A stretch of 64,000 bases of DNA from an uncultured Aliiroseovarius sp. (lineage in GTDB: Bacteria; Pseudomonadota; Alphaproteobacteria; Rhodobacterales; Rhodobacteraceae), in assembly GCF_947492455.1 (NCBI RefSeq), contig NZ_CANLNB010000001.1:558001-622000 (forward strand), written 5' to 3'. Position numbers and translations under genes: made by a program. Below the pieces are notes generated by a model. It made no database searches, was not told the DNA's origin, and worked only from the letters and a program-made list of their open reading frames with translations. Positions within the stretch are counted from its first letter, which is position 1. Every line of letters begins with the position of its first letter. Positions 37,109 to 56,341 of this stretch are shown here, in pieces.

Positions 37109-37849
37109 ATGACCGATACGCTTGGAAAGCTGTTCGGCTATTTGGGCGGGACCGCCCGTGACCTTGCTCCGATCCTTCTGATCGTGGGCTTCTTCCAGCT
37201 TGTGGTCTTGCAGCAACCGATTGACAATATTGGGCAATTCGCACTGGGCTTCCTGTTCGTCCTGTTGGGCCTGACGGTGTTCATCCGCGGACTCGACATG
37301 GCGCTGTTTCCACTGGGCGAGGCGTTGGCGAATGCGCTGGCCCTGCGTGGTTCACTGCCACTTTTGGTCCTCTTTGCCTTCAGCCTTGGCTTCGGTACCA
37401 CCGTCGCCGAGCCCGCCCTGATCGCTGTAGGCGCCGAGGCCGCGACTGTCATGTCCGAGGCGGGCGTGATTGGTCAAAGCGAGGCCGAACTGAGTTTCAT
37501 GGCGACCGCTCTGCGCTATACCGTGGCCGCGTCCGTCGGCGCATCACTGGTCTTGGGCGTCTTTCGCATCCTGATGGGCTGGCCGATCCAATGGCTGATC
37601 ATCGGAGGCTACATCTGTGTGGTGGTTCTGACTCCCATCGCCCCGCGCGAGATTGTAGGGATCGCCTATGACAGCGGGGGCGTCACGACCTCGACCATCA
37701 CGGTGCCGCTGGTGACGGCGCTGGGTGTCGGTCTGGCTTCCGTCATCAAGGGCCGAAACCCGATGATCGACGGGTTCGGGCTGATCGCCTTTGCCTCGTT
37801 GATGCCGATCATCTTCGTGTTGTTGTTCGGATTGGTGGTGGCGACATGA
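37109..37849 (+). CDS. DUF1538 membrane protein, first copy
   Basis: A 246-residue inner-membrane protein with about seven hydrophobic segments. It has the DUF1538 marks: [13 protein letters not shown] near the N-terminus, [30 protein letters not shown] and the repeat motif [19 protein letters not shown]. Function is not established; the fold looks transporter-like. AGGAAGGGG precedes the ATG. Its stop overlaps the second DUF1538 gene by four bases, so the two are coupled and likely form one heteromeric membrane unit. Confidence 0.85.
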
Positions 37850-38643
37850 TCACGATCCTGACGGACCTTTTTTGGACCTTCCTGAGCGTTGTGCGCGACG
37901 TGCTGCCGATCGCGGCGGTGCTACTCTTGTTCCAGCTCGTCATCCTACGCAAGCCGATCCCGCATCCGCAGAAGGTCGCCGTGGGCATGTTCTACGTGCT
38001 TCTAGGGCTGGCGCTGTTCCTGTCAGGGCTGGAGCTTGCCCTGTTCCCGCTGGGCCGCGAGATGGCCGCACAACTGACCGACCCGTCCTTCCTTGGCATC
38101 GAACCCGGCGGTGTCGTTCAATGGCTGGACTATTACTGGGTCTATATCTTCGCTTTCGCCATCGGCTTTGCGACGACCATCGCCGAGCCGTCCCTGATTG
38201 CCGTCGCCTTGAAGGCGCAGGAGGCCTCGGGTGGCGCGGTCAAGGCGAATGGGCTGCGGATCGCTGTGGCCTTTGGGGTTGCTATCAGCCTTGCGGTGGG
38301 GACGTTCCGTATCGTGACGGGTACGCCGCTCTATCAATACATGATCGTGGGCTATGTGATCGTGGTGATCCAGACGCTGATGGCGCCGCGCATGATCATT
38401 CCGCTGGCCTACGACAGCGGCGGGGTGACGACCTCGACTGTGACGGTGCCTTTGGTGGCGGCCCTTGGGCTGGGCCTTGCCAGCACCGTGCCGGGGCGCA
38501 GCCCCCTTCTGGATGGGTTTGGCCTGATTGCCTTGGCCAGCCTATTTCCCATGATTACCGTGATGGGCTATGCCCAAATCAGCAACTGGCTGTCGCGCCG
38601 CAAGGCCGATCAGGACAGCCAAGGAGAGAACCATGAAGTTTAA
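37846..38643 (+). CDS. DUF1538 membrane protein, second copy
   Basis: A 265-residue paralogue of the preceding gene, again with about seven membrane segments. The shared elements recur in the same order: [43 protein letters not shown] and [19 protein letters not shown]. Sequence and order argue that the two genes are halves of an internally duplicated transporter-like protein. It overlaps the PII-like gene by 11 bases. A transport or channel role gated by the PII and CBS partners is inferred from this arrangement. Confidence 0.85.
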
Positions 38644-38986
38644 ACTGATCATTGTGATGACACAGGATGAACTGACGGACACCGCCATCGAAGCGGCCCG
38701 CGAGAAAGGCGCAACCGGGTGTACCGTCATCACCTCGGCGCGGGGCGAAGGGTTGAACCCAACAAAGACCTTCTTCGGTCTGACTGTGGGCGGTCAGCGG
38801 GATGTGATCCTGTTTCTGGTCGAAGAACACCACAGCCGTCTGATCCTTGAAAGCATCGGCGCGGCCTGCCGTTTTGACGAAGATCCCGGCACCGGGGTCG
38901 CCTTCCAGTTGGATATCGAGGATGCGATTGGTCTGTCGGGTCAAATCGCCTCGATCCAAGAGGAAATCAGCAAGGAGGACTTGTGA
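38633..38986 (+). CDS. PII-family signalling protein
   Basis: A 117-residue ferredoxin-like-fold protein resembling GlnB/GlnK in size and core ([20 protein letters not shown] and GATGCTVITSARGEG). It has a shortened T-loop region and lacks the canonical GlnB uridylylation-site context, so it is a PII-like variant and probably not the global nitrogen sensor. The ATG at 38633 follows AAGGAGAG; an earlier in-frame start (38570) would lie well inside the DUF1538 gene. PII-type proteins commonly bind a membrane transporter and respond to nucleotides, which fits the two membrane genes upstream. Confidence 0.83.
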   Translation: MKFKLIIVMTQDELTDTAIEAAREKGATGCTVITSARGEGLNPTKTFFGLTVGGQRDVILFLVEEHHSRLILESIGAACRFDEDPGTGVAFQLDIEDAIGLSGQIASIQEEISKEDL

Positions 38987-39390
38987 TGGACGAGAACACG
39001 AAAAAGGTCCGGGATGTGATGCAGGGCACGATCTATATGATCAGTGGTCTGGCAACTGTGCGCGAAGCTGTGAACGAGATGGAGGCCAAGGGCGTCACTG
39101 CGCTGATCATAGAACGGCGGCACGAAGATGATGAATACGGCATCGTCTCGATCGATATGATCGCTGAACGGGCGATCGCGCTGAACAAGTCGCTGGACCG
39201 CACCAATGTCTACGAGGTGATGGACAAGCCCGCCCTGACGGTCTCGGACCACATGGCGGTTAAATACGCCGTGCGTCTTCTGTCGCGTCTGGATCACCGC
39301 CGCGCCTTGGTGATCGAGCACGGCAAAGCTTGCGGGCTGGTGACGCTGCGCGACATGGTGCTGAGCTATGCGAAGGCGCAAGACAGCTAA
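38986..39390 (+). CDS. CBS-domain protein
   Basis: A 134-residue protein made of a tandem CBS pair (about 10-70 and 72-132). Visible core motifs are VRDVMQGTIYMISGLATVREA, GIVSIDMIAERAIA and the second-motif ending CGLVTLRDMVLSY. CBS pairs bind adenine nucleotides and gate enzymes or transporters. The start codon overlaps the PII stop by one base after AAGGAGG, giving a tightly coupled four-gene operon with the two DUF1538 genes. It converges on the LysM/solute-binding genes across a hairpin. Confidence 0.88.
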   Translation: MDENTKKVRDVMQGTIYMISGLATVREAVNEMEAKGVTALIIERRHEDDEYGIVSIDMIAERAIALNKSLDRTNVYEVMDKPALTVSDHMAVKYAVRLLSRLDHRRALVIEHGKACGLVTLRDMVLSYAKAQDS

Positions 39391-41870: not shown

Positions 41871-42656
41871 TCAAATATTCAGGGGTTTGATCACAGCGAT
41901 CGTGATGTTGTCTTGGTCCGGATGGGCCTTGGCGCGCAGGGCCTGCACAAGGGCCACGGCAAGGTCGCGGGCGGGATTGTCTTTGTGAGCGATGGCAAGA
42001 GACTGGATCTGGTCATCGTCCAGATACTGAAGCCCATCGCTGGCCGCCAAAATCACGTCGCCCTTGGCCAGTTCGACCGGCGCGTCCGGGCAATCCAGCT
42101 TGGGCACAGGCGCGCCCATGATGACCGAGGTCAGCTGATTGCGGTCGGGATGGGAGCGGGCCTCTTCCTCGGACAGGGTGCCATCTGACACCTGCGCGTC
42201 GATCATCGGGGCCATCGAGTGGTCCTCGTTGATCTGCATCATGAACCCGTTACGACACAGATAGAGCGGCGAATCCCCGACGGACACCCAGTTCAGATGC
42301 TTGCCGCGCAACAGAACGCCCAGAAGGGTGGACCCCATACGCAGGTCAGAATCGCTTTCCTCAAGATAGGCCGCCACGGCATCGTTGGTGCGCAGCGCGA
42401 TTTGCGTCAGGTTTTCCGTCACCTGATCATCCGCGCAGCCACCGTTTTCCAGAAGGCCATCCAGTTCCGTCTGCCACGTAGCCTTCACCAGGCCCGAGGC
42501 AACGTCCCCGGCATCGTGTCCGCCCATGCCGTCCGCGACGACGACATATCCCGAATCCAAGGCATCGAAGAAACGCGCAGCAATTGCGTCTTCCTGCGTG
42601 TCACGTTTGCCCTGATCCGCCACGAGGGCGATGTCATATGCCGGGTTGGCCAACAT
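41871..42656 (-). CDS. PP2C-family Ser/Thr protein phosphatase
   Basis: A 261-residue cytoplasmic PPM/PP2C phosphatase. Metal-binding motifs are seen in KRDTQEDAIAA, VVADGMGGHDAGDVASG and the C-terminal DQDNITIAVI. It should reverse phosphorylation by the Ser/Thr kinase encoded upstream at 43853-45883. The start is two bases after the FHA-gene stop, so expression is coupled. The kinase, FHA reader and PP2C eraser set is complete and contiguous. Confidence 0.92.
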   Translation of the reverse strand: MLANPAYDIALVADQGKRDTQEDAIAARFFDALDSGYVVVADGMGGHDAGDVASGLVKATWQTELDGLLENGGCADDQVTENLTQIALRTNDAVAAYLEESDSDLRMGSTLLGVLLRGKHLNWVSVGDSPLYLCRNGFMMQINEDHSMAPMIDAQVSDGTLSEEEARSHPDRNQLTSVIMGAPVPKLDCPDAPVELAKGDVILAASDGLQYLDDDQIQSLAIAHKDNPARDLAVALVQALRAKAHPDQDNITIAVIKPLNI

Positions 42657-42658
42657 GC

Positions 42659-43657
42659 TTAGGCGTCCTGCCAGTCAAAGCTGTCGTCGCAGAACGCGAC
42701 AAAGCGCAAGGTGGTGTCGCTGATGCGGATCATGTCGCCATTCGACAGGGGAACAGTGCTGAGCACCGGACCACCGTTCAGGCGCACCAGATTGGCCTTG
42801 CCTCCGTGACCCAGATAGCAGGTGCGGTCTTCAGCGTTGTAGGCCACAACCGCATGCCCGGCGCGCGAGATGCCATTGTCGCCAAAGTCCAGCTGAACCG
42901 CCTGATCGTCGTTGCGACCGATCTGCGCCAGACCTTCCACCAGCGCAAAGCTGGTGCCGCGACCCGGGCCTTGGGTGATGACCAGCCAGCCCACCGGGAA
43001 GGAGTTCTGCGCGACCACCTGCTTGGCGACCGGAGCGGCCTCCATGCTTTCTTGCACGTGCGAGTCAGGGCGTTCGAAGCCCAAGAACGTGGTTTTCACA
43101 CGCTCGCTGCGGTCCGCCGCGGGGGCGGGGGCAGCGGGGGCCGGTACGGGCTCGGGCGCGATCTCGGCTTGCGGGACTTCGGCCACTTCCAGTGTTTCGG
43201 TCATCGCGATGCCAGGGGTGCGTCCGGGCAGATCTTCGGCCAGAATCGTGTTCACGATGGCATCCGCATCCGCGTCTGCGGCGTCGTTTTCAACAGCAGG
43301 GGCAGGTTGGGCCGCCGGGGCAGGCTCGACCTCTGGGGCTGCTTCGGCCACGGGGGCCTCTTCGACTTCGATCGGGGCGATCTCTTCGGCCGCAACCGGT
43401 GCGATGTCTTCAATCGGCGCGATATCCTCGGCGCGGATTTCGTCGATCTGGATGTCTTCCACGGGTTCTTCCGCGACCGCTTCGGGCTCGGCTTCCGTGG
43501 TCTGGTTCCCTCCGGCCAAAGCTTGTCGAAGGGCGTTCAGGTCCGCAATTGGCTCTTCCGAGGCTTCGTCACGATCTTCCTCGTGCGATTCGTCCTTGTT
43601 TGCGTGTTTAGCGCTACCTTCAAGCAGCCGGCTCAGCGGGCTTTTATATTTGAACAT
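42659..43657 (-). CDS. FHA-domain protein with long acidic Pro/Ala-rich N-terminus
   Basis: A roughly 333-residue protein. The first 210 residues are acidic and low in complexity (many Glu, Pro and Ala runs, such as EEPVEDIQIDEIRAEDIAPI). A C-terminal FHA domain (about 225-325) has the pThr-binding marks AQIGRNDD, GISRAGH and RLNGGP. FHA domains read phosphothreonine, so this is the probable reader in the kinase-phosphatase pair. The ATG at 43657 gives a basic FKYKSPLSRLL start; an in-frame start at 43687 is possible. Confidence 0.87.
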   Translation of the reverse strand: MFKYKSPLSRLLEGSAKHANKDESHEEDRDEASEEPIADLNALRQALAGGNQTTEAEPEAVAEEPVEDIQIDEIRAEDIAPIEDIAPVAAEEIAPIEVEEAPVAEAAPEVEPAPAAQPAPAVENDAADADADAIVNTILAEDLPGRTPGIAMTETLEVAEVPQAEIAPEPVPAPAAPAPAADRSERVKTTFLGFERPDSHVQESMEAAPVAKQVVAQNSFPVGWLVITQGPGRGTSFALVEGLAQIGRNDDQAVQLDFGDNGISRAGHAVVAYNAEDRTCYLGHGGKANLVRLNGGPVLSTVPLSNGDMIRISDTTLRFVAFCDDSFDWQDA

Positions 43658-43852: not shown

Positions 43853-45883
43853 TCAGGTTCTCCCTGCAAGTTGCATGGTGACCTGAACCTCGGCGCCGTT
43901 GCGCAGGGCAGTCAGGCGTGCTTGGGACACACCGTCGGCGACAAGGGTTTCAAGAATACGATCAAGGCTTTGGATGGCGTTGATCTGCTGGCCGGTCGTG
44001 TCTTCCGACAACAGGATGTCGCCTACACGTAGGTCGCCGGCAAAGCCTTCGGGCAGGCGCGTGACACGCACGGTCCAATTGCCGTTGTCTGCAGTGTTTG
44101 AGGTCAGCGTAACGCCGTTCTCAAGACCGAAGAAACGGATCGCGGGCAGCGCAAGCAAGCCGTTTACCGGCAGCGCACTGCCATGCTTGCGATAGCGAGC
44201 GGCAACGCGGATATAGCCATCTGGGTCAACCTTCACGTCGTCCAGAACGCGGTTCACGAAGCTGGCGCTGCTGGTAACCGGGTCGCCATTGATCGTGAAG
44301 ATCACAGTCCCACGAGAGACCCAGTCACCGATGATCGACATATCCCGCTTTGTATCGACGCCTGAAATCGCGACGGCGCTGCCAGTGGATAGGCGACGTT
44401 CACTGGTCGCGAAGGGGAGTTCGACATCCCAGTGACCGAACGCGATTTGCTGTTCCAGCAGATCCGCGGCCGCAACCGGGGTCGGAGCCGGGGCGGGTGC
44501 CTCGGTGATCGCAGTTTCCTCGGTGGCGGGCTCTTCGGTCGCAACAGGAGCCGTTTCAGCAACGGGTTCAGCTTCCGGTTCTGCTGCGGGTTCGGGTTCT
44601 GGCGTCGCCGGTGCCGGAGTGACAGCGGCCACTTCGACCGGTGCCGCAGTGTCAGCCTCGTCCGAGCCGCTGAAGGCGAAGTATCCGCCCGCGCCAAGCA
44701 CCAGAAGCGCGACGACGCCAGCGATGGCCTTGCCGCCGCCGCCCGAACTGCTTTTGACAACGGTGACCGACGGATCGCTTTCCGGTTGCGCTGGCGTTAG
44801 CCCTTCGGACTTCGCGGTCGTCGCGACATCATCATCGCTGGACAGCAGCGCAGTGACGATCGCCTCGGCGTTCTCGTTGTCCGCTTTCTTATCTTCCGGG
44901 CGCTCCAGCGCCACGATGACCGAGCTGGGGCGATAGCCGAATTCCTCGAACACAACGGTCGGTCCGCGGAACATGCGCAGCCATTCCAGCGCCGATTGCG
45001 GGCGGTTCACGATGTGCACTTCCATTGCCTTGTCCAAGGCGCTGAGGAAGCCTTCGGGATAGCCCTCGAAGCGGCCCGACAGCGGAACATAGGGGTCGTC
45101 TTCGCCTGCGTTGAACGCATCCAGACGCGACTTGCCGTCGATCGGGCGCTCGCCGCTGATGGCGTGGTACAGCGTGGCGGCCAGCACATACAGGTCGCTG
45201 GTTGCGTCCTGATCGGCGCCACGCGCGTAGAATTCATGCGGAGAATATCCGTCTTTGATCACCCGCAGCGTCAACAGCGCCGCCGAGCGGTTCGCCGCCC
45301 GCTCGCGCGCCGCGCCGAAGTCGATCAGAACCGGCTGGCCGTCTTCGTCGATCAGGATGTTGTCGGGCGAAATATCGCGGTGCAGCATCCCGTTGTCGTG
45401 GATGAACGACACAGCCGACAGCATCTTTTCCGTGACCTTCACGATGAAGTCCGGCGTCACGTCGTTGTTTTTATCTTGAACGTAATCAAGCAGATCGCCG
45501 CCATTGATCAGGTCCATCGCGATATAGGCGGTCTGGTTGTCTTCGAAGACCTGATGCACGTTTACGATGTTCGGGTGAACCAGACGCGCGTGGTTGCGGG
45601 CTTCCTGAATGAACAGCCCGATGATCGATCGCAGATCTTCTTCATAGGCGGGGTCCGAGGCCTCGACATTGTTGCCGACACGGCGGCACAACGCGCCCGG
45701 AAAGCATTCTTTGATGACGACATTCCGGTCCAGACTGTCACGCGCCAGATAGGTGATGCCAAAACCACCGTTGTTCAGAAAACGAAGGATCTCGTACTGG
45801 TCGCGCAGCAGTTTTTCACCGGGCTGCAACGCCGCAATCTGGGGGGGTTCATTTGTCTGCCCCGATGCCTGATTCTGGCTCAT
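43853..45883 (-). CDS. Membrane Ser/Thr kinase with C-terminal PDZ-like domain
   Basis: A 676-residue Hanks-type kinase. The kinase domain (about 25-305) has a Gly loop NNGGFGITYLA, lysine at about 58 (VVIKECF), HRD at 168-170 in LHRDISPDNILI and DFG at 188-190 in LIDFGAARE. A single membrane span near 385-404 (AIAGVVALLVLGAGGYFAF) is followed by a Pro/Ala/Glu linker, a beta-rich region and a PDZ-like end (about 590-676, GDLRVGDILLSE). The C-terminal half would be periplasmic. It lies just upstream of FHA and PP2C genes and downstream of the GTPase genes. Confidence 0.9.
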   Translation of the reverse strand: MSQNQASGQTNEPPQIAALQPGEKLLRDQYEILRFLNNGGFGITYLARDSLDRNVVIKECFPGALCRRVGNNVEASDPAYEEDLRSIIGLFIQEARNHARLVHPNIVNVHQVFEDNQTAYIAMDLINGGDLLDYVQDKNNDVTPDFIVKVTEKMLSAVSFIHDNGMLHRDISPDNILIDEDGQPVLIDFGAARERAANRSAALLTLRVIKDGYSPHEFYARGADQDATSDLYVLAATLYHAISGERPIDGKSRLDAFNAGEDDPYVPLSGRFEGYPEGFLSALDKAMEVHIVNRPQSALEWLRMFRGPTVVFEEFGYRPSSVIVALERPEDKKADNENAEAIVTALLSSDDDVATTAKSEGLTPAQPESDPSVTVVKSSSGGGGKAIAGVVALLVLGAGGYFAFSGSDEADTAAPVEVAAVTPAPATPEPEPAAEPEAEPVAETAPVATEEPATEETAITEAPAPAPTPVAAADLLEQQIAFGHWDVELPFATSERRLSTGSAVAISGVDTKRDMSIIGDWVSRGTVIFTINGDPVTSSASFVNRVLDDVKVDPDGYIRVAARYRKHGSALPVNGLLALPAIRFFGLENGVTLTSNTADNGNWTVRVTRLPEGFAGDLRVGDILLSEDTTGQQINAIQSLDRILETLVADGVSQARLTALRNGAEVQVTMQLAGRT

Positions 45884-46220: not shown

Positions 46221-47537
46221 CTACGCGTCTTTGCCGCGGGTTCCGGCCCAAGACAGGTTGTCGCTCAGCTGGGTCATCACCTTCAGGACCGTCTCGGTCG
46301 CGTGCGGGGTGTCTTCGAATTGCATCAGGGTTAACAGGTCCGACGCGTTCTCGAACTCGCCCACGATCCACTCGGCCGAGGAGTCGATGCTGCTGCCGGG
46401 GTCCAGTTGTTCGGTGAAGTCATCGACCAGCTCTTGGCAACGTTGCAGCAGGTCAGTGATTTCAAGATCAGGGGTGTCGCGCAGTTCGGTCAGCAACTCG
46501 CGCAATGCGTCTTTCCAGTCGTCCAGCAAGGGGTTTTCCAGATCGGTGTCTTCCGGTTCTGGTTCAGGCGCAGCCACAGCCGTTTCCGCCGCAGCGGCCG
46601 CCGCCGCCGCGACAGCTGCCGCGGCTTCTTTCAGGTCGGCCCCGGCGGGCTCTTCTGCCACGCCCAACGCGGCCAGCGCCGGGGTGAGTGTGGTCTCAAG
46701 GTCTTGGCGGGCTTTCTCAAGGTCCCGCGTCTTGCGCGTGGCGGCCAGCCCCAGAACACGCTGCGCCAGATCTTCACCGCCGCATTCAGCCCAAAGGTCG
46801 AAATCCGGCTCCGGTTCTTGCGCCATCGCCTGAACGGCGACGGGCGTCCCGATGGGCACAACGGCTTGGAACATCCCTTCGCTGTCACGCTCTAGATGCG
46901 GCACCAACCGGGGCAGAGATTCCCGTACGGACGTAAGGTCGGTATGGGTCAAGGCCAGCAGGCTGTTGTCCTGAAGGTCTTTCGAAACATGCGACCACAA
47001 GAACCGTTCCGTTTCCCGCCACGCATTGGTGCCGTTGGTGCACCAGATCGCGCAATCAACGAATTTCAGCAGCTCAAGCGTCTGCTTATAGCTTTCATCC
47101 AGAGCGCCCGAGCCGGGCAGGTCAAACAGCACGAGTTCTTGCAAGGCATCAGACGGCAACCCGACCGAGATGAACTCGGGGTCGTACCCGGCCGCTTTTT
47201 CCAGATCGACGCCGGGAAAGGTTTCAGGGGTCTTTTCCCACCAGCCGACCGTGGTTTCAGGTTCGGCGGCGTATTTCACGATCACCAAGGGCAGCTTCAG
47301 GTGCTGCGGACCGGTGGGCAGAATGTCGGTGCCTGCCAGCATGTTCGCCAGACTGGATTTCCCCGCCCCGAATTCGCCCGCGAAGCCGATGGTCACGGCG
47401 CTGGTCAACTGTTCGATATGGGCCTGCGCCAAACTGCGCATGCCATCCAGCGGAGCCGATCTTGGCGCGGCCTCGGTCTTCGCGAGAAACGCTTTCAGTT
47501 GACCAAGAACTGATTCTGTTTCTGGAAAGTTGATCAC
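46221..47537 (-). CDS. Dynamin-like GTPase, B-type, second pair
   Basis: A 438-residue GTPase. G1 is GEFGAGKSS (54-62), G3 is DLPGSG (139-144) and the G4-like motif is THTD (197-200). A distinctive segment, WCTNGTNAWRETERFLW (165-181), recurs almost unchanged in the protein at 50981-52672, marking the two as a subtype. The C-terminal half has an Ala-rich stretch (about 308-335) and acidic helices. Its start overlaps the stop of the neighbouring A-type GTPase by four bases, so the two are coupled and probably form a heteromer. Function unknown; membrane remodelling is inferred from family. Confidence 0.82.
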   Translation of the reverse strand: MINFPETESVLGQLKAFLAKTEAAPRSAPLDGMRSLAQAHIEQLTSAVTIGFAGEFGAGKSSLANMLAGTDILPTGPQHLKLPLVIVKYAAEPETTVGWWEKTPETFPGVDLEKAAGYDPEFISVGLPSDALQELVLFDLPGSGALDESYKQTLELLKFVDCAIWCTNGTNAWRETERFLWSHVSKDLQDNSLLALTHTDLTSVRESLPRLVPHLERDSEGMFQAVVPIGTPVAVQAMAQEPEPDFDLWAECGGEDLAQRVLGLAATRKTRDLEKARQDLETTLTPALAALGVAEEPAGADLKEAAAAVAAAAAAAAETAVAAPEPEPEDTDLENPLLDDWKDALRELLTELRDTPDLEITDLLQRCQELVDDFTEQLDPGSSIDSSAEWIVGEFENASDLLTLMQFEDTPHATETVLKVMTQLSDNLSWAGTRGKDA

Positions 47538-49570
47538 GTTACCGCCTCGAGTTGCTGTACAGGTTCGATACCCTCTTCGAACAACTCTTCCAACTCATTT
47601 GCAAGCCTCTTGGCATTTTCCAAGGCGGCGTGTGCATCAGGACGCGATGCGGTTTGGGTTGCGTCCAGCTCTTCAAAGCGGGTCGCAAGTACGGCCAGAT
47701 GATGCTCCATCACCGTGTTCAGACGGCTTGTCAGATCCAGGTGGAACTGGTTCACAAGATCGGTTGCGATGGACTGGAACTCGTGCGTGATCATCTGTTC
47801 GCCGCGATTGACGACGGATTGTTGTTTCAACAGACGGGCCAGCCACGAGACGCGCAATTCTACCGTGATGCCGCGGGTTAGGATGCTGGTGTCGGGGCGG
47901 TACCAGCGCAGCGCACTGGCATCCACGTTCAGCGGCGCGTCGGCGGTTGCGGCACCGTTTTCGGCCAAAGCCGCGTTCGATTGCATGTCCAACGCGAACA
48001 GCTCGTTCAGCATTTTCTGGCGCTGGGCATGGGCTGCGTCCAGCAACCGCTCGCGCATGGTCTGGCGTAGCGCGCCAAAGTCCAGCTCGGTCGCGCCACC
48101 CGCTGACAAAAGCGGCGATACGCCATCCTCGCCCCGCACCACGGTCGAGACGGTCGAGCGCACGATGGCATCAAGTTCTTGCCGTAACGCGGCCATGTCG
48201 GTCTCGGCGCCCGTGGTCAGGCGATCCTTGGTATCGAGCACAAGCTGGCTAAGCTGCGCGCGGGTTTTGTCTTCGGTCCGTGCAAAGTGGGCTTCTGCGG
48301 TGTCGTCGTCGACGATCTTCAGATGCACGCGGCGCCGTTCCAGTTCACTGTTGGCGAAGTTGCGCAGATGCTGGGCGGCGATGTGAATGCGTTCGCTACG
48401 CGGCCCCATCGACATCTCGCGCATGACGTGGCTGCGCAGGTCCGGCAGGCCCGAGGCAATCATCGCGGCCAAACGCAGCGCGCTTTCGGCGGCACCTTCT
48501 TGCTTGGTTTGCTTCAGCCGTTCAACGCCCTCAAGGAAGCGCTGCATTTTCTTCGGATGGGCCTTCAGCCACGCCAGAATCTGGTCGTGGTCAATGCCGG
48601 TCGCGTCCCCGGTCAGCGCATAGTGGGCCCATTGCGCGCTGCCCATCAGTACGGTCATGCGGCTGCTGTCCAACGCGCGCTCAAGTCCTGCGTGGACATC
48701 GGCATGCACGCTGGCGGCATCCTCGACCCCGCGGTTCAGCTCGTCCACCCGGTTCACAAAGACCACCATCTGCCCCAGCTCTAGCGCCTGCATCAGTCGG
48801 AACAGTTTCAGGTCTGCCTGCGACAGCGCCTGATGCGCAGACAGGACCACGACGAAGAAGTCGGAGTTGCGCAAATACTGGTGCGAGATCTCTTCCCGGA
48901 TCAGCAGCGGGTCATTGATGCCCGGCGTGTCGGTCACCGTGACAGGGAACGAGAAATGGCCCTGCTCGAAAAACACCTCGGCCTTGCGGGTCAGATCGCT
49001 GTAATAGGGCGCCGCTGTGCCGTCGGTCTGCGTGGGTTCGTCTTCGGGATCGGCGCCAGCGCTGACATAGCGGGCCAGATCGTCCTGCGTCAGATCTTCC
49101 AGGTCATGGGACGTGCCCAGCAGGTCTTCGTACCGATCTCCAAGTCGCGCCTTCGCCCGCGTCTTCATCGCCTCGATCTGCTCTTCGATGATCTGGCGCT
49201 TATAGTTGTCTTCCGCATCCGGAAGCAGGTCGCGGATTTCGTCCCCCTCGGACAGAAGTGCCTGCCATTGGGCGTTGTCGAAGAAGTGGAAAATGCCCCC
49301 GTTGGTGCGCCCGGATGGGTGCCCGAAATGCATGTCGGTCACAACAGTGGTCCACGGGTTTACATCCGATGGCAGGAAATTCGCCTGCCCGGTAAAACCA
49401 TTGATCAGACGCGATTTGCCCGCCTTGATCTGGCCCACGAAAGCGACGCCGGGTTTTAACGATTTGAGGTCCGTCAGGATGCGCGAAATGAACGGCTTGG
49501 CTTCATCGCTAGCCGTTTGCGACATCTGTTCGGCGATCCGAACCAGCTCCTGTCGGCGTCCCTCGTCCAT
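47534..49570 (-). CDS. Dynamin-like GTPase, A-type, second pair
   Basis: A 678-residue dynamin-like protein. G1 is GQIKAGKSR (46-54), a G2-region motif is LPSDVNPWTTVVT (66-78), G3 is DTPGIND (214-220) and G4 is NRVDEL (273-278). The rest is helical, as in bacterial dynamin-like stalks. Near 565-580 a basic hydrophobic stretch (LRVSWLARLLKQQ) could be a membrane-contacting segment. SDVNPWT, DTPG and NR-D-EL are shared with the 670-residue protein at 52677-54689, so the two are paralogues. It follows the 298-residue unknown by 76 bases. Confidence 0.85.
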   Translation of the reverse strand: MDEGRRQELVRIAEQMSQTASDEAKPFISRILTDLKSLKPGVAFVGQIKAGKSRLINGFTGQANFLPSDVNPWTTVVTDMHFGHPSGRTNGGIFHFFDNAQWQALLSEGDEIRDLLPDAEDNYKRQIIEEQIEAMKTRAKARLGDRYEDLLGTSHDLEDLTQDDLARYVSAGADPEDEPTQTDGTAAPYYSDLTRKAEVFFEQGHFSFPVTVTDTPGINDPLLIREEISHQYLRNSDFFVVVLSAHQALSQADLKLFRLMQALELGQMVVFVNRVDELNRGVEDAASVHADVHAGLERALDSSRMTVLMGSAQWAHYALTGDATGIDHDQILAWLKAHPKKMQRFLEGVERLKQTKQEGAAESALRLAAMIASGLPDLRSHVMREMSMGPRSERIHIAAQHLRNFANSELERRRVHLKIVDDDTAEAHFARTEDKTRAQLSQLVLDTKDRLTTGAETDMAALRQELDAIVRSTVSTVVRGEDGVSPLLSAGGATELDFGALRQTMRERLLDAAHAQRQKMLNELFALDMQSNAALAENGAATADAPLNVDASALRWYRPDTSILTRGITVELRVSWLARLLKQQSVVNRGEQMITHEFQSIATDLVNQFHLDLTSRLNTVMEHHLAVLATRFEELDATQTASRPDAHAALENAKRLANELEELFEEGIEPVQQLEAVT

Positions 49571-49646
49571 AATTTTTTTCCAACTCGTTATTCAAAGCAA
49601 ACTGCAAACCCAAATCCCAACGTGGGAAGCGGGCGTTTCATAGTAT

Positions 49647-50543
49647 TCAGCTAAAATTTTCGTTCGAAGTCAATGATTTCCACAATTGTACGGCCGAACC
49701 CAACCTACGCGTGTGGTGGGCCGTCATCGTCGTGGAATCGGTGTCGCGGCAAATGGTCAAACTGGGCATATCCTGCCCCTGCGCCCGCAAGATAATCAGC
49801 TGCGGACCCGAATCTTCTTCGCCGCTGTCGGCATCCCACGCGGACAGGTCTTCCATCAGCTGCTGAACGGCGTCCAAATTCTCGGTCAGGATCCCGTCTG
49901 GACCGGCAACCGTGGCGTCTGCATGGTTTACCAAGATCCGCAGATCGCTGACCTTCGTTGCGTTCTCGAAAAACTGGGCGGCGATGCTGTCACCGATATC
50001 GCTGGGCGTGGGGGCAGTCGGTTCCGGCGCTGGAGTCGCGTGCTTGGCGACGGGAATCTCGACCTCGGCCTCGATGGCTTCCGGGCCCGAGGGTTCCGAC
50101 GGCGTGGGCGGCGGGCTCATCGGTTCCAGCGCGCTGATGGCGGCGTCGATGTCAGACATTTTCAGACCCGTGGCGACGATGTCTTCGCCATCCTCGGGCG
50201 GGTAGCTGGTCACGCGCACGCCCGAGCCAGAACATACCATGCTGAGGATTTGCGCCACGTTCTGGGCCGTGGTTTCTGGCGGGGTGGCCTGCACCCCGTC
50301 CATCACGGCCCCGGTCATGTCGGCCACGCGACCTTTGCTGACCGCCAAAACCACCCCGTCATCCTGATCATTTGTGATCTCGACGATGCGGGGCAAAAAG
50401 GTTGTCCGCACGACAGCCAGCGCCGCCATGCTGCGGGCTTCGGGTGTGTCTTGAGACAGGGAAATGCTTTGGTTGCGCCGGGGGTTTGCCTCGTCCACGA
50501 TGCGTTCGAGCTGATCAAGAATGTCGGATTGGATCACAGTCAT
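49647..50543 (-). CDS. Unrecognised two-part protein inside the GTPase operon
   Basis: A 298-residue protein that I do not recognise. The N-terminal part (about 1-140) is a mixed alpha/beta region with a core VVLAVSKGRVADMTGAVMDG. A Pro/Glu/Ala linker (about 140-185) leads to a second region (about 190-298, VSDLRILVNHADATVAG and QLIILRAQGQDMPSL). No signal peptide or membrane span is visible. It is six bases downstream of the Roadblock-like gene, so it likely acts with the GTPases as an adaptor. That role is inference. Confidence 0.75.
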   Translation of the reverse strand: MTVIQSDILDQLERIVDEANPRRNQSISLSQDTPEARSMAALAVVRTTFLPRIVEITNDQDDGVVLAVSKGRVADMTGAVMDGVQATPPETTAQNVAQILSMVCSGSGVRVTSYPPEDGEDIVATGLKMSDIDAAISALEPMSPPPTPSEPSGPEAIEAEVEIPVAKHATPAPEPTAPTPSDIGDSIAAQFFENATKVSDLRILVNHADATVAGPDGILTENLDAVQQLMEDLSAWDADSGEEDSGPQLIILRAQGQDMPSLTICRDTDSTTMTAHHTRRLGSAVQLWKSLTSNENFS

Positions 50544-50549
50544 CTTTAT

Positions 50550-50975
50550 CTACACCGCAGCCGAGATGAGTTTCAGGTTCGCCGCGGATTTGGCCAAAGC
50601 CAGCCCGACATTCGCGCTGTCGTCCGAGACATAGCAGATCAGATGGTCCGGCTGATCAGGCCGCCTCAGCAACAAATACAGGCGCTTGCCCGAACAGATC
50701 GCAATCTCGCCAAATCCCGCGCCCTGGGTGTTTCCGCCCGAAAGCAGCTCTTCCACGGCGCGCACACCGCGCCCCATCAGCAGGCTGGCGATCGAGGTCG
50801 ACATGGCTTCCAGCGCGGCGATGCTGTCATCATCGCGCCCCTGCACACCCAGAAGAAACCCGGTCTGCATGTCGACATAGCCGGCCGCGACGCAGTTCGG
50901 AACGGTTTGCATGCCCGCTGAAAGCGCGTCGTCCAAGGACAAGGTCGCGTCAGCCAAAGTGGTGTTATGTATCAT
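50550..50975 (-). CDS. Roadblock/LC7-like protein inside the GTPase operon
   Basis: A 141-residue protein whose pattern resembles Roadblock/LC7 domains: a first strand pair GYVDMQTGFLLGV, an amphipathic helix IAALEAMSTSIASLLMG, a strand EIAICSGKRLYLLLRR and a closing helix SANVGLALAKSAANLKLI. Such proteins (MglB for example) form dimers that bind or regulate small GTPases. Here it sits between two pairs of large dynamin-like GTPases, five bases from its upstream neighbour and six from the next gene. A role as GTPase regulator or platform is inferred. The family match is by eye and should be confirmed. Confidence 0.65.
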   Translation of the reverse strand: MIHNTTLADATLSLDDALSAGMQTVPNCVAAGYVDMQTGFLLGVQGRDDDSIAALEAMSTSIASLLMGRGVRAVEELLSGGNTQGAGFGEIAICSGKRLYLLLRRPDQPDHLICYVSDDSANVGLALAKSAANLKLISAAV

Positions 50976-50980
50976 CTGTT

Positions 50981-52672
50981 TTACAGTACGTGCCAGACAG
51001 TGTCGCTGTCAGAGGCCGTGTCGCTTAGGGATTGCAGGGAGCCTTCAGACTGTTGCGCGTGGTGATCACGGGCGCGGTTGTCAAAATGCGTCAGGAAATT
51101 CACGATCTCCTCGTGCAAATCATCCGGGTGGTCGATTTTTTCTAGGGTCGACAGGTGTTCGGACCATGCCTCTAATGCACTCAGTGGCTTGGTTTCCGGC
51201 ATGCTGAAGACGGGCTGGTTTGCGGCTAAGGCGATGGCTTCGGCAGACGGCGCAGCCTCGGCTTCTTCCGCATGATCTTCATATTCCTGCCCGCGATCCG
51301 ACACCAAATCGGTGATCGACGCGATCAGATTTTCCGTGTCTTCGGCGCCGGTCTCGTCGCTCTCGGAGGCGTCGACAGGTGCCGGTGGGTCGTCGGTGGC
51401 GGCCGCGTCCAGAAGTTCAAGCGGTTCACTGTCTTCGGCCTCGTCAGCCTCGACCGTTGAGCCTACCTCGTCCTCGATCTCGGCGACGTCTTCGTCGCCC
51501 CACTCCGACGTGGGCTCGGCGGCGATTTCCTCGGGCTGTTCGGGGATCTCATTCACCAAGGTCAAGGTGTCGGACTTGTCCTCCTCCGCATCTGCGCTAT
51601 CGGCAACATGGAAGACGGATTTCAGATCTTGCCTGTCTTGGTCGTCGGGCGTGTCGGTGTGCACCTGCGCGCGCAACTTGTCGGCTTCGTCCGCCGCAAT
51701 GCGCTGGCGGGTCTCGGTCGTGTCTCTGTCCCGCGCCGCCCGGCGCGGGCGGGCAGGGCGGATGTTAACCACGTTCGAGGTTTCTGGCGCCATCGGAGCG
51801 GGCGCTGGATCGTCCGCGACGGACATAACCGGCGGGCTCCAGATCCGGGTCGAGGTCTCCTCGCCCAGCTGCAGCGCATCAATCGCTTGCTCTTCGGTCG
51901 AGCCGTCTATCTGATAGCGCGCCAGCATCTCGGCGCGTGCGGCCATGATGTCGGCGGTGATGGTCAGGAAGTTGTCGACCAGCTTGCCGCCGCCGCTTCC
52001 GGTCCACAGGTGGGCCTTATCTTCATTGTCGCGGGCAATGATCGCATCGCGGGCGGAAATCATGATCGTGCGGCGGAACATGTCGCCCGCTTCACGATTG
52101 ATCCGGCGCAGCACCTTGGCCTGATCCGTTTCGTTCAGCGCGTCCGCACGCGTCACCAGCAGAAGCGAGTTTTGACGCAGGCGGTTGGGCAGCGAGGCCC
52201 ACGTCGCGCGTTCGGTTTCACGCCAGGCTTGGGTCGAGTGAGTACACCACAGCACGCCATTGGCCTGTCCAACCGCACGGCGCCAAACATCTTCCGAAAT
52301 CTTCGGGTCCGAGATGCCGGGCGTGTCGATCAGGTCCACGGCTTCCAGAATGTCGGCTTCCAGATAGACCCGCACGAAATGCGCGCCCTGCACGCCGACT
52401 TCGCCAATCTTGCTTAACTCAATGGTCTCGCGACTGCCGTCCAAGTTCTGTACATAGGAGGGCTTGTTGCCCCACGAGAACCAGATGGGTGGCAGTTGCG
52501 TTGCCGTGACCTGCGTGGGCAGGGTTTCTTTCTTCAACAGGAAGTTCAGAAGCGTGGATTTACCTGCGCTGAATTCGCCCATCAGGGCGAAGACCGGTTT
52601 ACGGTGCGACCAGCGCTTTAGACGTTTCCATTGCTCTGCTGTGACAATGCGCGGGGGAATGTGATCTTTCAT
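50981..52672 (-). CDS. Dynamin-like GTPase, B-type, first pair
   Basis: A 563-residue GTPase. G1 is GEFSAGKST (32-40), G3 is DTPGISD (116-122) and G4-like is TRAD (174-177). WCTHSTQAWRETERATW (142-158) matches the same segment in the B-type protein at 46221-47537. From about residue 270 to 500 the chain is strongly acidic and low in complexity, rich in Asp, Glu, Ser and Thr. That stretch could be a phosphorylation target of the neighbouring kinase, which is inference. The start at 52672 lies four bases after the upstream GTPase stop; an earlier in-frame start would overlap it. Confidence 0.83.
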   Translation of the reverse strand: MKDHIPPRIVTAEQWKRLKRWSHRKPVFALMGEFSAGKSTLLNFLLKKETLPTQVTATQLPPIWFSWGNKPSYVQNLDGSRETIELSKIGEVGVQGAHFVRVYLEADILEAVDLIDTPGISDPKISEDVWRRAVGQANGVLWCTHSTQAWRETERATWASLPNRLRQNSLLLVTRADALNETDQAKVLRRINREAGDMFRRTIMISARDAIIARDNEDKAHLWTGSGGGKLVDNFLTITADIMAARAEMLARYQIDGSTEEQAIDALQLGEETSTRIWSPPVMSVADDPAPAPMAPETSNVVNIRPARPRRAARDRDTTETRQRIAADEADKLRAQVHTDTPDDQDRQDLKSVFHVADSADAEEDKSDTLTLVNEIPEQPEEIAAEPTSEWGDEDVAEIEDEVGSTVEADEAEDSEPLELLDAAATDDPPAPVDASESDETGAEDTENLIASITDLVSDRGQEYEDHAEEAEAAPSAEAIALAANQPVFSMPETKPLSALEAWSEHLSTLEKIDHPDDLHEEIVNFLTHFDNRARDHHAQQSEGSLQSLSDTASDSDTVWHVL

Positions 52673-52676
52673 TGTA

Positions 52677-54689
52677 TCAGGCCGCCTCGGTGCCAAGATC
52701 CTTCAGGATGTCTCCCAAAAGTTCATCCGGGGTTTTCGCGGCCTTAAGGCCAGCCGCTTTCAAGGCTTCTTCGTCCATCTGCGCTTGCGCCGATTGCGAA
52801 ATTCCCAGAAGTGTTTCTTGCTGCTCTACCATGAATTCTGCCAGCGACGCGCGGACGTTTTCCAACACGGCTGCGATCTGGTTTTCTTCGATGTCCTTGG
52901 TGATCGAGCTGGCCTCGGACGCCACAAGCCGGGTGTAATCCGCAGCGTAGGAAGCGGCACCCCGGCGGCGTTGCCACCAGCGACGCCACCATGTGCTTTG
53001 CAGGTCCAGCGCGATTGTGCGGCCAATGGCAAGGGGAGGCGGGACGTTGGGCACGATCGGCGGTTCGATCGCGAACTCGCCCAGATGCTGGCCCAGCATG
53101 TTGCGGTACACGGCCTCGATATCATGGGCTGCAGAGGCGTACAGCGCGCCCACCTCTTTGCGCATTGCGCGCGCGAAGTTGAAATAGGCGGATTTTTGAA
53201 GCGCGCGGAATCCGGCGGGATCGTATTGCCATGTACCGTCTTCGCCATGCTGCTCGATATGTTCAATCAGCGATTCGGTTGCGCGTTTGATGAAGTTTTC
53301 TTCGGTGCGCGCCAGCCGCTGCATCACCTTATCGCGGAGTTTCCCGGTCAGCTCGGTCGCGCGGTGTTCATAGTCGTTTGCAACGGTTCGGATCGCGTCT
53401 TCCGGCGTTTTGCCGTCCAGATCATAGACCATCGTGCCCGTGTCAGTCAGCGTCTTCGCGACCGAAGTCGCGCGGATCTGGCTGGCCATGTTGCGGGCCC
53501 GATTGCGGACCTTGTTGCACAGGCGTGCGCCTGCGCCTTCGGCGATGCGTTCGTTGATCGACAGCAGCAGGTCCGGCAGACCCGACAAAGCCCAGATATG
53601 TTCCAGCTCGATGTTTTCGCTGTCGAACCCGGCAGCCACGCACAGCTTGTTCAGCGACGATGCTGCGTGATCAGTCAGCATGCTCGAATCGCCCGTTAGC
53701 GCAGCTTCACCCCACAGGGCGCTGCCAAAGATCACACCCGCTTCGGTGTTGATGCTGCTTTGCTTCAGCATCTCGGTCACGCGGTCGCGGATTTCCGGGA
53801 CTTCGCGCACCGGGTCATGCAGTTCGTCGATGCGGTTGATGAACAGGATGATCTGGCGGTTCTCAAACTGCGAGATCATGCGCATCAGCGCCAGATCCAT
53901 CGTGGTCAGGGCTTGGCTGGCGGCCATCACGACCACGCAGACCTCGGACCCGCGCAGGCTGCGCAGGGTGATCTGCTCGCGGACCATGAAGGTATCGTTC
54001 ACACCCGGCGTGTCGCTGAGGTTGATCGCCATCGGGTATTGCGGGATGTCCAGATACAGCTCGGCCGTTTTGGTCACATCCGCGAAACGTCCGCTGTCGG
54101 CGCTGATATCCGGATCGTCTTCGTCACCCATGCAGACATAGCGCTGCACCAGATCGTCGTCGAAATAGTCATACGAGTGGCTTTGACCCATGATCAGGTC
54201 GAAATGCTTGCCCAGACGCTCTTCCGAGCGGGCTTTCATATCTTCAACCTGTTTGCGGATGTCGTCCATTTCGTCATCCGCACCGGCACGGTGGGCCAGT
54301 TCGCCCAGACGCCCGCCACCGGCGGTCAGGTTCTGCCATTCGTCGTGGTCGAAGAAGGTAAACTTGGCTTTCGTGTCGCCCGGCGTACGGGTGTTCACGT
54401 GCAAGGTGGTCGCGACCGAGGTCCACGGGTTGACGTCCGACGGCAACAGACCGGGGCGTCCTGCCATGATGTTCACAAGCGACGACTTGCCCGCCTTGAC
54501 CTGACCCACAAATGTCACGTTTGCGGTGAATTCGTCCATCCGCGATTTCAGTTTGGCCAGCCGGGCCGAACTGCGTGCGTCCGCAATTGCCGTCAGCTGG
54601 TCAATCGTCGCGTTCAACCCGCCGAACGCATCGTTCAGCGGGTCCAGTGCTTCGTTGCCTGTTGCGAGTAGGTGTATGTTTCGTGCCAT
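52677..54689 (-). CDS. Dynamin-like GTPase, A-type, first pair
   Basis: A 670-residue dynamin-like protein. G1 is GQVKAGKSS (62-70), the G2-region motif is LPSDVNPWTSVAT (82-94), G3 is DTPGVND (226-232) and G4 is NRIDEL (285-290). A long helical region follows. Near 565-575 there is a striking Trp/Arg cluster, STWWRRWWQRRRG, well suited to contact membrane lipid. It is closely patterned after the 678-residue protein at 47534-49570. Three bases separate it from the upstream unknown gene. Confidence 0.85.
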   Translation of the reverse strand: MARNIHLLATGNEALDPLNDAFGGLNATIDQLTAIADARSSARLAKLKSRMDEFTANVTFVGQVKAGKSSLVNIMAGRPGLLPSDVNPWTSVATTLHVNTRTPGDTKAKFTFFDHDEWQNLTAGGGRLGELAHRAGADDEMDDIRKQVEDMKARSEERLGKHFDLIMGQSHSYDYFDDDLVQRYVCMGDEDDPDISADSGRFADVTKTAELYLDIPQYPMAINLSDTPGVNDTFMVREQITLRSLRGSEVCVVVMAASQALTTMDLALMRMISQFENRQIILFINRIDELHDPVREVPEIRDRVTEMLKQSSINTEAGVIFGSALWGEAALTGDSSMLTDHAASSLNKLCVAAGFDSENIELEHIWALSGLPDLLLSINERIAEGAGARLCNKVRNRARNMASQIRATSVAKTLTDTGTMVYDLDGKTPEDAIRTVANDYEHRATELTGKLRDKVMQRLARTEENFIKRATESLIEHIEQHGEDGTWQYDPAGFRALQKSAYFNFARAMRKEVGALYASAAHDIEAVYRNMLGQHLGEFAIEPPIVPNVPPPLAIGRTIALDLQSTWWRRWWQRRRGAASYAADYTRLVASEASSITKDIEENQIAAVLENVRASLAEFMVEQQETLLGISQSAQAQMDEEALKAAGLKAAKTPDELLGDILKDLGTEAA

Positions 54690-54692
54690 GGC

Positions 54693-55121
54693 TTAACCCT
54701 CGGTACCGTTTAAAACATTTCTCAGACCGAGTTCTGTTTGTAGCTGTCCTGCAGGCAGGTTCGATGGTGTGTCGATCAGCTCGACCAGATCGATGACATC
54801 CAGTATTAACTGCATTTCATGTGCCGCCTGTCCGATGTACCCGTCTGGGATATCTGCAAAGACTTGAATGGTCTGAAAGCGCTTGCCGTCTTCCAGTTTG
54901 GCGACCTGTTCGCCTTTCGGAAAGCCATCCGCTTTGTTGGCAGGAAGTGCCATCTTGGGATTGGCAAGCATGTAATGATCCCCGTGCTTGGTCTCCAGCG
55001 ATACACCAAAGCCGACATGTGGATACTCCGCGCTAAGATACTGCAACCTATCGCTAAGCCCTTTGCGCATGACAAAGGCGGCATTGGCCTGAATATCAAC
55101 AACTTTGGACGTAGCGTGCAC
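54693..55121 (-). CDS. Unrecognised first protein of the GTPase operon
   Basis: A 142-residue protein of unknown family. A GTG at 55121 with GAGG eight bases upstream is preferred. The frame extends further to a TTG at 55208, but that start would lie upstream of a TATATT -10-like element at 55195-55200. Visible segments are DIQANAAFVMRKGLSDRLQ, a beta-rich middle (VGFGVSLETKHGDHYML) and a helical end (AAHEMQLILDVIDLVELID). No signal peptide or membrane span is seen. It begins the run of co-directional GTPase genes. It could be an adaptor, but nothing in the sequence shows function. Confidence 0.65.
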   Translation of the reverse strand: MHATSKVVDIQANAAFVMRKGLSDRLQYLSAEYPHVGFGVSLETKHGDHYMLANPKMALPANKADGFPKGEQVAKLEDGKRFQTIQVFADIPDGYIGQAAHEMQLILDVIDLVELIDTPSNLPAGQLQTELGLRNVLNGTEG

Positions 55122-55738
55122 GGTGAGGTCCTCGGCATTAGGTAGAGTGGGGTACCAGGTTGACCTCAAGTAAAGAAGAGGTCGGGGACTCATTAATATA
55201 CATCCCAATGAGTCTGCCCCAGAACGGGGCCTAATTGAGACACAATTGAGAGTTGTTTAGGCCGGAAATGGGGCGCAATTATGGCGTAAGGAAAATGCTT
55301 TTGTTTCCACCGTTAAGGGAGCGTGAACGCCGCCACAAATCTGCGGAAACTTTTAGCTAGCCCCTCTTTTCGCGCGCGGAATTGCTGGAAACACAAGGAA
55401 TTAAGGCAAATTCGGAAAGGGATTCGCCGTCGAGCAACGATTCGCTTGCTGCTGACTTGCACGATTTAAGGGCTGAAACGCGCTATGCGACTAAACGGGG
55501 TTTTCGGATCAGGTTGAGTTGCCTGGGTACAGGAATGTGTGAAGGATGGGAAAGGACATTGCTTCGGACCTCGAAGAAGCAGCAGATTCGCCCACAATCC
55601 TGCCGCAAAGGCTTGTGCGAGCACCCGTGGCGCCAAACAACCTTGCGATGAAAAAAATGCCGCCGTTTGATCTGCGACAAATTGCGCTTCCGTGTGGTCA
55701 GCTAGGTAATTTGCGAATCCACCACATGAGGCTCTCAC
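55122..55738. other. Divergent intergenic region before the GTPase operon and cytochrome c gene
   Basis: No convincing gene is seen in these 617 bases. On the minus strand TATATT (55200-55195) could serve as a -10 element for the GTPase operon, without a good -35. An imperfect 11-base-phased direct repeat AATTGAGA (55233-55240 and 55244-55251) lies upstream of it, and GCCCC-AGAAC-GGGGC forms a short hairpin (55216-55230). These fit regulator sites at the operon promoter but are unproven. Short frames here (for example 55382-55651) lack family signs. Confidence 0.4.
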
Positions 55739-56194
55739 ATGACCAAGTTGTATCCCGCACTGGCAGCACTGCTTCTCTTCCCCGGTTTGGCGGGTGCAGA
55801 AGGCGATCCGGCCAAGGGCGAAAAAATGTATAACCGTTGCTCGGCGTGCCACGCTGTCATCAGCCCCGAAGGCGAGGTGCTGGTCAAAGGCGGCATCACC
55901 GGCCCGAACCTGTATGGTGTCGTTGGCCGCGTGGCTGGCACCGAAGGCGACTATCGCTATGGCAGCGAACGCCTGCCGGTCGGCATGTTTACCGATGACA
56001 TGATCCGCGCGGGCGAAGAGGGTTTGGTTTGGACCATCGACAATCTGGTCGAATACACGAAAGATCCGATTGGCTTTATCCGCACCTTCCTGGACGATCC
56101 AAAAGCACGCCCGAACATGGCCGTGAAGCTGCGCAAGGGTGCCGAAGATATCGTCGCCTATGTTGCGACGTTCTCGGACGCGCCTGCGGAGTAA
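55739..56194 (+). CDS. Cytochrome c (class I, c2-like)
   Basis: A 151-residue periplasmic cytochrome. The signal peptide (LYPALAALLLFPGLAGA) precedes GDPAKGEKMYNRCSACHAV, with the haem motif CSACH at 34-38. The methionine ligand is probably in RPNMAVKLR near residue 124. It would shuttle electrons in the periplasm. Length and the GPNLYGVVGRVAG segment fit small soluble c-type cytochromes of Rhodobacterales. It is divergent from the GTPase operon and is followed by a hairpin terminator and a tRNA gene. Confidence 0.92.
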   Translation: MTKLYPALAALLLFPGLAGAEGDPAKGEKMYNRCSACHAVISPEGEVLVKGGITGPNLYGVVGRVAGTEGDYRYGSERLPVGMFTDDMIRAGEEGLVWTIDNLVEYTKDPIGFIRTFLDDPKARPNMAVKLRKGAEDIVAYVATFSDAPAE

Positions 56195-56264: not shown

Positions 56265-56341
56265 TGGTCGGGCTGAGAGGATTCGAACCTCCGACCCCCT
56301 GCTCCCGAAGCAGGTGCGCTACCAGGCTGCGCTACAGCCCG
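56265..56341 (-). tRNA. tRNA-Pro (CGG)
   Basis: Read on the minus strand, a seven-base acceptor stem CGGGCTG pairs with CAGCCCG, then discriminator A and an encoded CCA. The anticodon arm is CCTGC-TTCGGGA-GCAGG, giving anticodon CGG, which reads proline codon CCG. The T arm GGAGG-TTCGAAT-CCTCT is intact. 77 bases including CCA. Confidence 0.95.

Follow-up and report, generated by a model that had tools for sequence, protein, structure and literature searches.

The dynamin-like GTPase genes of the window (the whole stretch of DNA analysed, 64,000 nucleotides in length, from a marine bacterium) are part of a set of twelve genes, all on the minus strand, whose core is well supported as a conserved unit. 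It combines two large/small pairs of dynamin-family proteins, Roadblock-type proteins and a half comprising a kinase, an FHA protein, a PP2C phosphatase and LysM proteins. We propose that it encodes a multi-component dynamin machine, gated by phosphorylation and acting on the inner membrane in response to cell-envelope conditions, a reading to which we assign a probability of about 45%. That relatives keep the same gene set suggests an undescribed, signal-controlled membrane machine. The genes are:

Gene A, 54693..55121, minus strand: 142 aa, unknown protein (ORF).
Gene B, 52677..54689, minus strand: 670 aa, large dynamin-like GTPase with predicted stalk (Pfam, AlphaFold2).
Gene C, 50981..52672, minus strand: 563 aa, small dynamin-family G domain with a long acidic tail (Pfam, motifs).
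Gene D, 50550..50975, minus strand: 141 aa, Roadblock protein by profile comparison (hhalign with controls).
Gene E, 49647..50543, minus strand: 298 aa, unknown N-terminal domain and probable Roadblock-fold C-terminal domain (around residues 179-298).
Gene F, 47534..49570, minus strand: 678 aa, the other large dynamin-like GTPase, from a deeply separated subfamily (Pfam, tree).
Gene G, 46221..47537, minus strand: 438 aa, the other small dynamin-family GTPase, with intact motifs (Pfam).
Gene K, 43853..45883, minus strand: 676 aa, Ser/Thr kinase with one predicted transmembrane segment (Pfam, NCBIfam, hydropathy scan).
Gene X, 42659..43657 (ORF open to 43687), minus strand: FHA protein whose N-terminal part is of low complexity, with a KT-x-LLGF-type motif.
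Gene P, 41871..42656, minus strand: 261 aa, PP2C phosphatase (Pfam, NCBIfam).
Gene L1, 40608..41837, minus strand: 409 aa, LysM and a solute-binding-like domain (below cut-off in Pfam).
Gene L2, 39468..40568, minus strand: 366 aa, LysM and a weakly matching solute-binding-like region (Pfam).

The initial annotation described seven closely spaced genes at 46221-55121, and the open reading frames reproduce its arrangement of A to G, with gaps of 3 (A-B), 4 (B-C), 5 (C-D), 6 (D-E) and 76 bases (E-F) and an overlap of 4 bases between F and G; the B-C gap presumes the ATG at 52672 as the start of gene C. The block is not confined to these seven, as had been thought. Beyond 46221, on the same strand, lie the five further genes K, X, P, L1 and L2, with an intergenic distance of 337 bases between G and K. 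Of this K-X-P-LysM half, the FHA protein X co-occurs with the dynamins across genomes (see below). Scans for sigma-70-like sites (1 found, 3.9 expected) and terminator-like sites (23 found, 17.1 expected) were uninformative for the locus. The Pfam scan of the window covered selected genes within 37-58 kb. Gene A, one of two proteins initially left as unknowns, retains that status; it has no match in Pfam, NCBIfam or PADLOC, and none to the Roadblock sets in profile comparison. Its homologues have identities of 30-94%, and it occurs in the version of the operon found in Aliiroseovarius, Ruegeria and Roseovarius, with low-identity copies in loci L198 and L205.

All four GTPases pass the curated Pfam cut-off of 27 bits for Dynamin_N (B 45.2, C 42.3, F 51.2 and G 38.1 bits), and each contains the G1, G3 (DxPG) and G4-like motifs originally reported. 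They provide the long Dynamin_N matches of their own genome; three others elsewhere span just profile positions 1 to 36-47. The four had been called large, but the large dynamin-like proteins are B and F alone, each with a shorter partner, C and G respectively, and the 'four dynamins' resolve into two large/small pairs, B-C and F-G. The AlphaFold2 model of B (pLDDT 82, pTM 0.83) has a dynamin GTPase domain and a long helical stalk, the combination on which the original proposal depended, and B is accordingly modelled as a full dynamin fold. Its matches include BDLP, SynDLP, IniA, Campylobacter DLP and mitofusin. F is by sequence a homologue of B, its stalk being assigned by homology, and in a tree of the large GTPases (95 of 97 proteins; the other two are halves of one split gene in L070) it falls in a subfamily deeply separate from that of B. 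Where the stalk helices of B turn there is a basic, tryptophan-rich stretch, with four tryptophans conserved in 33, 34, 33 and 29 of 35 B proteins. This conserved tip is at most suggestive of membrane binding and GTP-dependent assembly. A phage origin for B was considered and rejected; a tblastn search of the phage collection with B gave no match at 1e-5.

Gene D had been described as Roadblock-like, and profile-profile comparison using hhalign bears this out, though Pfam misses it. Against 26 proteins with a Pfam Roadblock match the probability is 94% (P 1.2e-7), with one reversed and five column-shuffled controls all at or below 0.3%. The assignment of D as a Roadblock protein is settled solely by this comparison; the D alignment has 26 members, not one of which is matched by the Pfam Robl_LC7 profile at E values up to 1, and there is no Roadblock protein among the PDB profile matches of D. 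An eight-member group of proteins (cluster 11) is tentatively regarded as Roadblock. It matches D weakly (12.7%) and the Roadblock set at 34.6%, with one of its five shuffled controls reaching 7.4%, and of two members scanned with Pfam Roadblock one scored 14.3 bits (cut-off 23) and the other gave no match. Gene E, the second of the supposed unknowns, gave no match to the Roadblock sets in profile comparison. The closest VIA match of its C-terminal domain is MglB, and this region (around residues 179-298) is probably a second Roadblock domain, at the level of the fold only.

One Roadblock protein and one probable Roadblock-type protein, together with a dynamin fold that resembles BDLP, SynDLP and mitofusins, might suggest a membrane-trafficking machine, making or severing vesicles or internal membranes with the Roadblock proteins as a platform akin to Ragulator or MglB. 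We think this improbable, as the operon has no gene indicative of trafficking, and fission or vesicle release is not something that sequence can reveal.

The other half of the set has the features of a signalling module, with catalytic kinase and phosphatase motifs and an FHA domain in the adjacent genes K, X and P. K contains HRD and DFG motifs and P a DGMGG motif. A hydropathy scan of K predicts a single transmembrane segment at residues 386-404, and the part C-terminal to this is taken to be periplasmic. The FHA domain of X is preceded by the KT-x-LLGF-type motif, which is present in 49 of 51 X proteins and in none of 1185 other proteins. The spacing between motif and FHA domain is 39-66 residues in 45 of the 49; in the other four the loose FHA pattern matched elsewhere. 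The near-invariant threonine of the motif is a candidate target site for the kinase. L1 and L2 have N-termini that were read by eye as signal peptides, and both genes are present in Ruegeria.

Gene order was surveyed in 80 loci from 73 genomes; 12 further stretches were excluded from the counts, and three genomes with partial hits (G310, G434 and G446) were omitted from the 76 others that match B. Ruegeria has all twelve genes in the same order as the window. Across the survey the core K-X-P-G4-B-C-D-E (where G4 is a small GTPase) is exactly colinear in 42 of the 80 loci, and B is directly followed by a C-type gene in 79. The gene-order HMMs were built on the loci they scanned, so this is a test of order and not of independent presence. 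Other arrangements are B-C-D-E-F-G-K-X-P (the window and Ruegeria), B-C-D-E-G4-K-X-P (L045) and a divergent one (L044). The genes just outside mostly differ, falling into 23 clusters among 25 upstream neighbours and 32 among 42 downstream, and this is the conserved block with variable flanks that was anticipated for a system. A multi-component unit with a Roadblock protein is thus upheld, but it does not usually include four GTPases; the usual complement is a large GTPase, a small one and a second small one that is mostly degenerate. Two genomes of the same genus that lack the operon (G666 and G690) retain the DUF1538-CBS side followed by different genes, and in neither was a clean empty site seen.

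In seven of the 80 loci an mreB-like gene lies directly downstream on the same strand, followed in six by mreC, mrdA and rodA (identified by eye). Together with the LysM genes of the window, this raises the idea of a growth or division machine, in which remodelling of the inner membrane would be coordinated with the peptidoglycan synthesis of elongating or dividing cells. However, six of the seven mreB-linked loci belong to one clade and the seventh is absent from the tree, so the linkage may be a single event, and we rejected it as a general feature. Moreover, the system has no match in 218 of 295 genera and is therefore unlikely to be essential for growth, making such a role distinctly doubtful.

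These figures come from a search of 295 genomes of the family, one per genus, of which 77 match the large-GTPase profile. Both B and X were found in 59 genomes, B alone in 18, X alone in 4 and neither in 214; the X profile was derived from loci found with B, which biases the co-occurrence somewhat towards B-linked X genes. B and X are at most 11.3 kb apart in 53 of the 59 genomes carrying both, and the two halves are clearly separated in two genomes (G291 and G507). The large-GTPase profile matches none of 285 genomes of the class outside the window's family, taken as Rhodobacteraceae in the GTDB sense. X-like FHA and PP2C genes, mostly with a kinase, occur without dynamins in other alphaproteobacterial families, one such locus including MotA/ExbB and a peptidoglycan-binding protein.

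The distribution is patchy, within the genus of the window also, and some copies are borne on plasmids, as might be expected of an anti-phage system whose dynamins hold the membrane together or delay lysis late in infection, with the kinase as sensor. K matches the PADLOC PD-T4-6 models (best E 6.8e-46), although this may reflect just the common kinase domain, and the GTPases match the PADLOC LeoA/LeoBC models weakly, at no more than 41.2 bits. Phage lysis is delayed by DynA of B. subtilis (PMC8844932). Yet the flanking genes inspected encode metabolic, transport, regulatory or hypothetical proteins, and a gene order that stays fixed at around 40% protein identity would be unlike that of a fast-swapping defence gene. 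On balance we consider a defensive function unlikely.

We return to the phosphorylation-gated machine, whose likely role would be membrane tethering or repair coupled to the envelope. Sensing of peptidoglycan or the periplasmic state would fall to the LysM proteins and the outer portion of K, and K would phosphorylate the near-invariant threonine in KT-x-LLGF of X. The FHA domain of phosphorylated X could then switch partners in the manner of GarA/OdhI, and D and E might together serve as a Roadblock platform for recruiting or regulating the GTPases. B and F would embed their tips in the membrane and join C and G in tethering or resealing it; the phosphatase P would reset the switch. Slightly more tentatively, we suggest that a dedicated kinase-FHA-phosphatase switch controls the machine and a Roadblock D-E platform governs the two dynamin pairs. 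The system would then be a bacterial equivalent of the Roadblock-scaffolded GTPase complexes found on eukaryotic membranes, whether through convergence or by descent, and its origin would lie in Rhodobacteraceae, in the coupling of a dynamin pair to a general envelope-signalling module. Such a system would bring Roadblock and dynamin proteins, two separate worlds, together in a single bacterium. Little is known of what switches bacterial dynamins on. A conserved operon that combines dynamins with a likely kinase, phosphatase, phospho-reader and scaffold would make the question of activation directly testable, and Ruegeria and Leisingera are marine bacteria that can be grown for this purpose.

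Several known systems resemble parts of the operon. Nostoc BDLP (2j68/2j69), SynDLP (7zw6) and mycobacterial IniA (6j72/6j73) share the GTPase and long helical stalk across most of the model of B, at just 12-15% identity or so; these proteins are not known to have a comparable phospho-signalling operon. MglA/MglB and other bacterial Roadblock-GTPase couples likewise place GTPases beside Roadblock proteins, but their GTPases are small and Ras-like whereas those here are of the dynamin family. Kinase-FHA-PP2C modules include PpkA-Fha-PppA of type VI secretion and PknB-GarA/OdhI. These too combine the three activities in neighbouring genes, with a threonine motif before the FHA domain (OdhI is phosphorylated at Thr14), but the module here is linked to dynamins, and the related modules of other alphaproteobacterial families have different neighbours.

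GTPases, a protein kinase and a PP2C phosphatase share a neighbourhood in the GAP1-N2-type GTPase-centric conflict systems (Kaur et al. 2020, PMC7159879), where the third partner is a vWA gene; that text contains neither 'dynamin' nor 'roadblock'. The best match to the Leo (LeoA/LeoBC) dynamin system is weak, 41.2 bits in a library that gives no cut-off. Among the matches listed in a search of the open-access literature (subscription papers and preprints being outside its scope) there was no recognisable description of the operon. The best PDB sequence match for the B profile is Campylobacter jejuni DLP1/DLP2 (5owv, 5oxf), where dynamin-like proteins are also encoded by neighbouring genes of an operon. 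Bacterial DLP genes are mostly paired, and membrane repair and envelope stress have been raised as speculation for the Campylobacter pair (PMC6104087); the words 'kinase' and 'roadblock' are absent from the text of that paper. Unlike DLP1/DLP2, the GTPases here form large/small pairs, at most two per operon, accompanied by kinase, FHA, PP2C and Roadblock genes, and it is the kinase-FHA-PP2C-LysM half that sets the operon apart from the known bacterial dynamin pairs.

The window covers 558001-622000 of contig 1 of its genome. ORF calling showed that the minus strand from 55121 to 46221 is occupied by seven genes (A to G), and the intergenic spacings given for them in the initial annotation were reproduced. 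All four GTPases (B, C, F and G) exceed the Pfam cut-off for Dynamin_N. Five more minus-strand genes begin 337 bases past G, and the gene after the last of them is a CBS gene on the plus strand. The features of the region are:

55121-46221, minus strand: A (unknown), B and F (large dynamin-like GTPases), C and G (small dynamin-family GTPases), D (Roadblock) and E (probable C-terminal Roadblock domain)
From 337 bases past G, minus strand: K (Ser/Thr kinase), X (FHA protein, its gene overlapped by an ORF on the opposite strand), P (PP2C phosphatase), L1 and L2 (LysM proteins)
37109-39390: DUF1538-DUF1538-small protein-CBS cassette, adjoining the operon and kept in two same-genus genomes that lack it
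56265-56341: tRNA-Pro gene, just upstream of the operon
54001-56000: drop in GC (0.553 vs about 0.60), just upstream of the operon

The tRNA gene and the GC drop together mark a possible integration site.

All twelve genes are present in the same order in a Ruegeria-type genome (G331). The same series is found in the RefSeq annotation of a Ruegeria sp. AD91A plasmid, where the counterparts of A, D and E are labelled hypothetical, those of B, C, F and G dynamin, those of K, X and P protein kinase, FHA and PP2C, and those of L1 and L2 substrate-binding proteins; there a glycosyltransferase gene (L267:31566-32741) begins 53 bases past L2. A to G together with K and X lie inside the fetched stretch in 43 of the best 80 loci from genome_contigs, an uneven sample in which the closest relatives were retained out of a longer list. 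Among the matches listed, Aliiroseovarius genes share 89-98% identity with B, and most of those from Ruegeria share 69-73%.

We regard it as well supported that the operon genes form one conserved functional unit, with a probability of about 0.9. At 1e-20 a search with B found matches in 77 of 295 family genomes, and 80 loci were fetched from 73 of the 76 other matching genomes. By clustering and profile searches C is next after B in 79 of these, and the exact order K-X-P-G4-B-C-D-E, where G4 is a small GTPase gene preceding B, occurs in 42. An upstream neighbor was detected in 25 of the 42, spread over 23 clusters, and a downstream neighbor in all 42, spread over 32 clusters, the biggest group being six mreB-like cases. 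Profile searches place the kinase half before the dynamin half in most loci having it, after it in the window, G331 and L045, and divergent from it in L044. An mreB-like gene directly follows the operon on the same strand in L058, L068, L069, L070, L071, L075 and L079; in six of these seven mreC, mrdA and rodA, read by eye, then follow.

X was matched in 63 of the 295 genomes at 1e-10. Both B and X are found in 59 genomes, B only in 18, X only in four and neither in 214 (Fisher P about 1e-40, ignoring shared ancestry and with an X profile derived from B-linked loci). The two lie on one contig within 11.3 kb in 53 of the 59; they are clearly separate in G291 and G507 and probably so in G455, while in G434, G482 and G578 fragmentation, or a position close to contig ends, hides how far apart they are. 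Two of the X-only genomes (G433 and G471, the others being G299 and G544) have K-X-P.

A profile from 35 B proteins matched 60 of 149 genomes in the order sample, being absent from two of the window's own genus. In the class sample it matched two of 289, both in the window's family, and none of the 285 from other families. Plasmid-borne copies number 18 records (Leisingera 12, Ruegeria 5, Rhodobacter 1), and the phage records searched gave no match. X-like FHA proteins occur in five of the 285; within the fetched stretches of these loci (L275-L279) there is a PP2C in all five, a kinase in four, and no dynamin by the operon profiles. In a Pfam scan of selected genes from three of them, L278 showed a MotA/ExbB and a vWA protein together with additional FHA proteins and a protein with a peptidoglycan-binding domain; L277 had a trypsin-FHA protein and L279, further off, a caspase-domain protein. 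On the simplest reading, a dynamin pair was joined in Rhodobacteraceae to a general signaling module, perhaps envelope-related. At four other loci in the family (L111, L112, L115 and L118), two dynamin pairs, each large/small, are accompanied by a distinct small protein (cluster 11), tentatively Roadblock-like, and the fetched stretch shows no kinase module; these loci represent a simpler relative of the kinase-linked operon.

The signaling proteins retain their motifs: HRD in 50 and DFG in 51 of 52 kinases, DGMGG in 49 of 51 phosphatases, and the FHA core pattern in all 51 X proteins. A transmembrane segment is present in 14 of the 52 kinases, including that of the window, so envelope sensing by K itself would be limited to some versions. 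KT-x-LLGF is found in 49 of the 51 X proteins, and in 45 of those it lies 39-66 residues ahead of the FHA core; the 1185 other proteins from the same loci all lack it. The Thr of the motif is invariant among 19 aligned sequences.

Judging from fold and tip, B and F are likely to remodel membranes. A full chain, from envelope signal through kinase, FHA switch and Roadblock platform to the dynamins, can be proposed tentatively. GarA and OdhI are phospho-switch proteins, and the pairing of KT-x-LLGF with FHA in X resembles their switch. The components are each of a known kind; the open-access literature searched contained no description of their combination.
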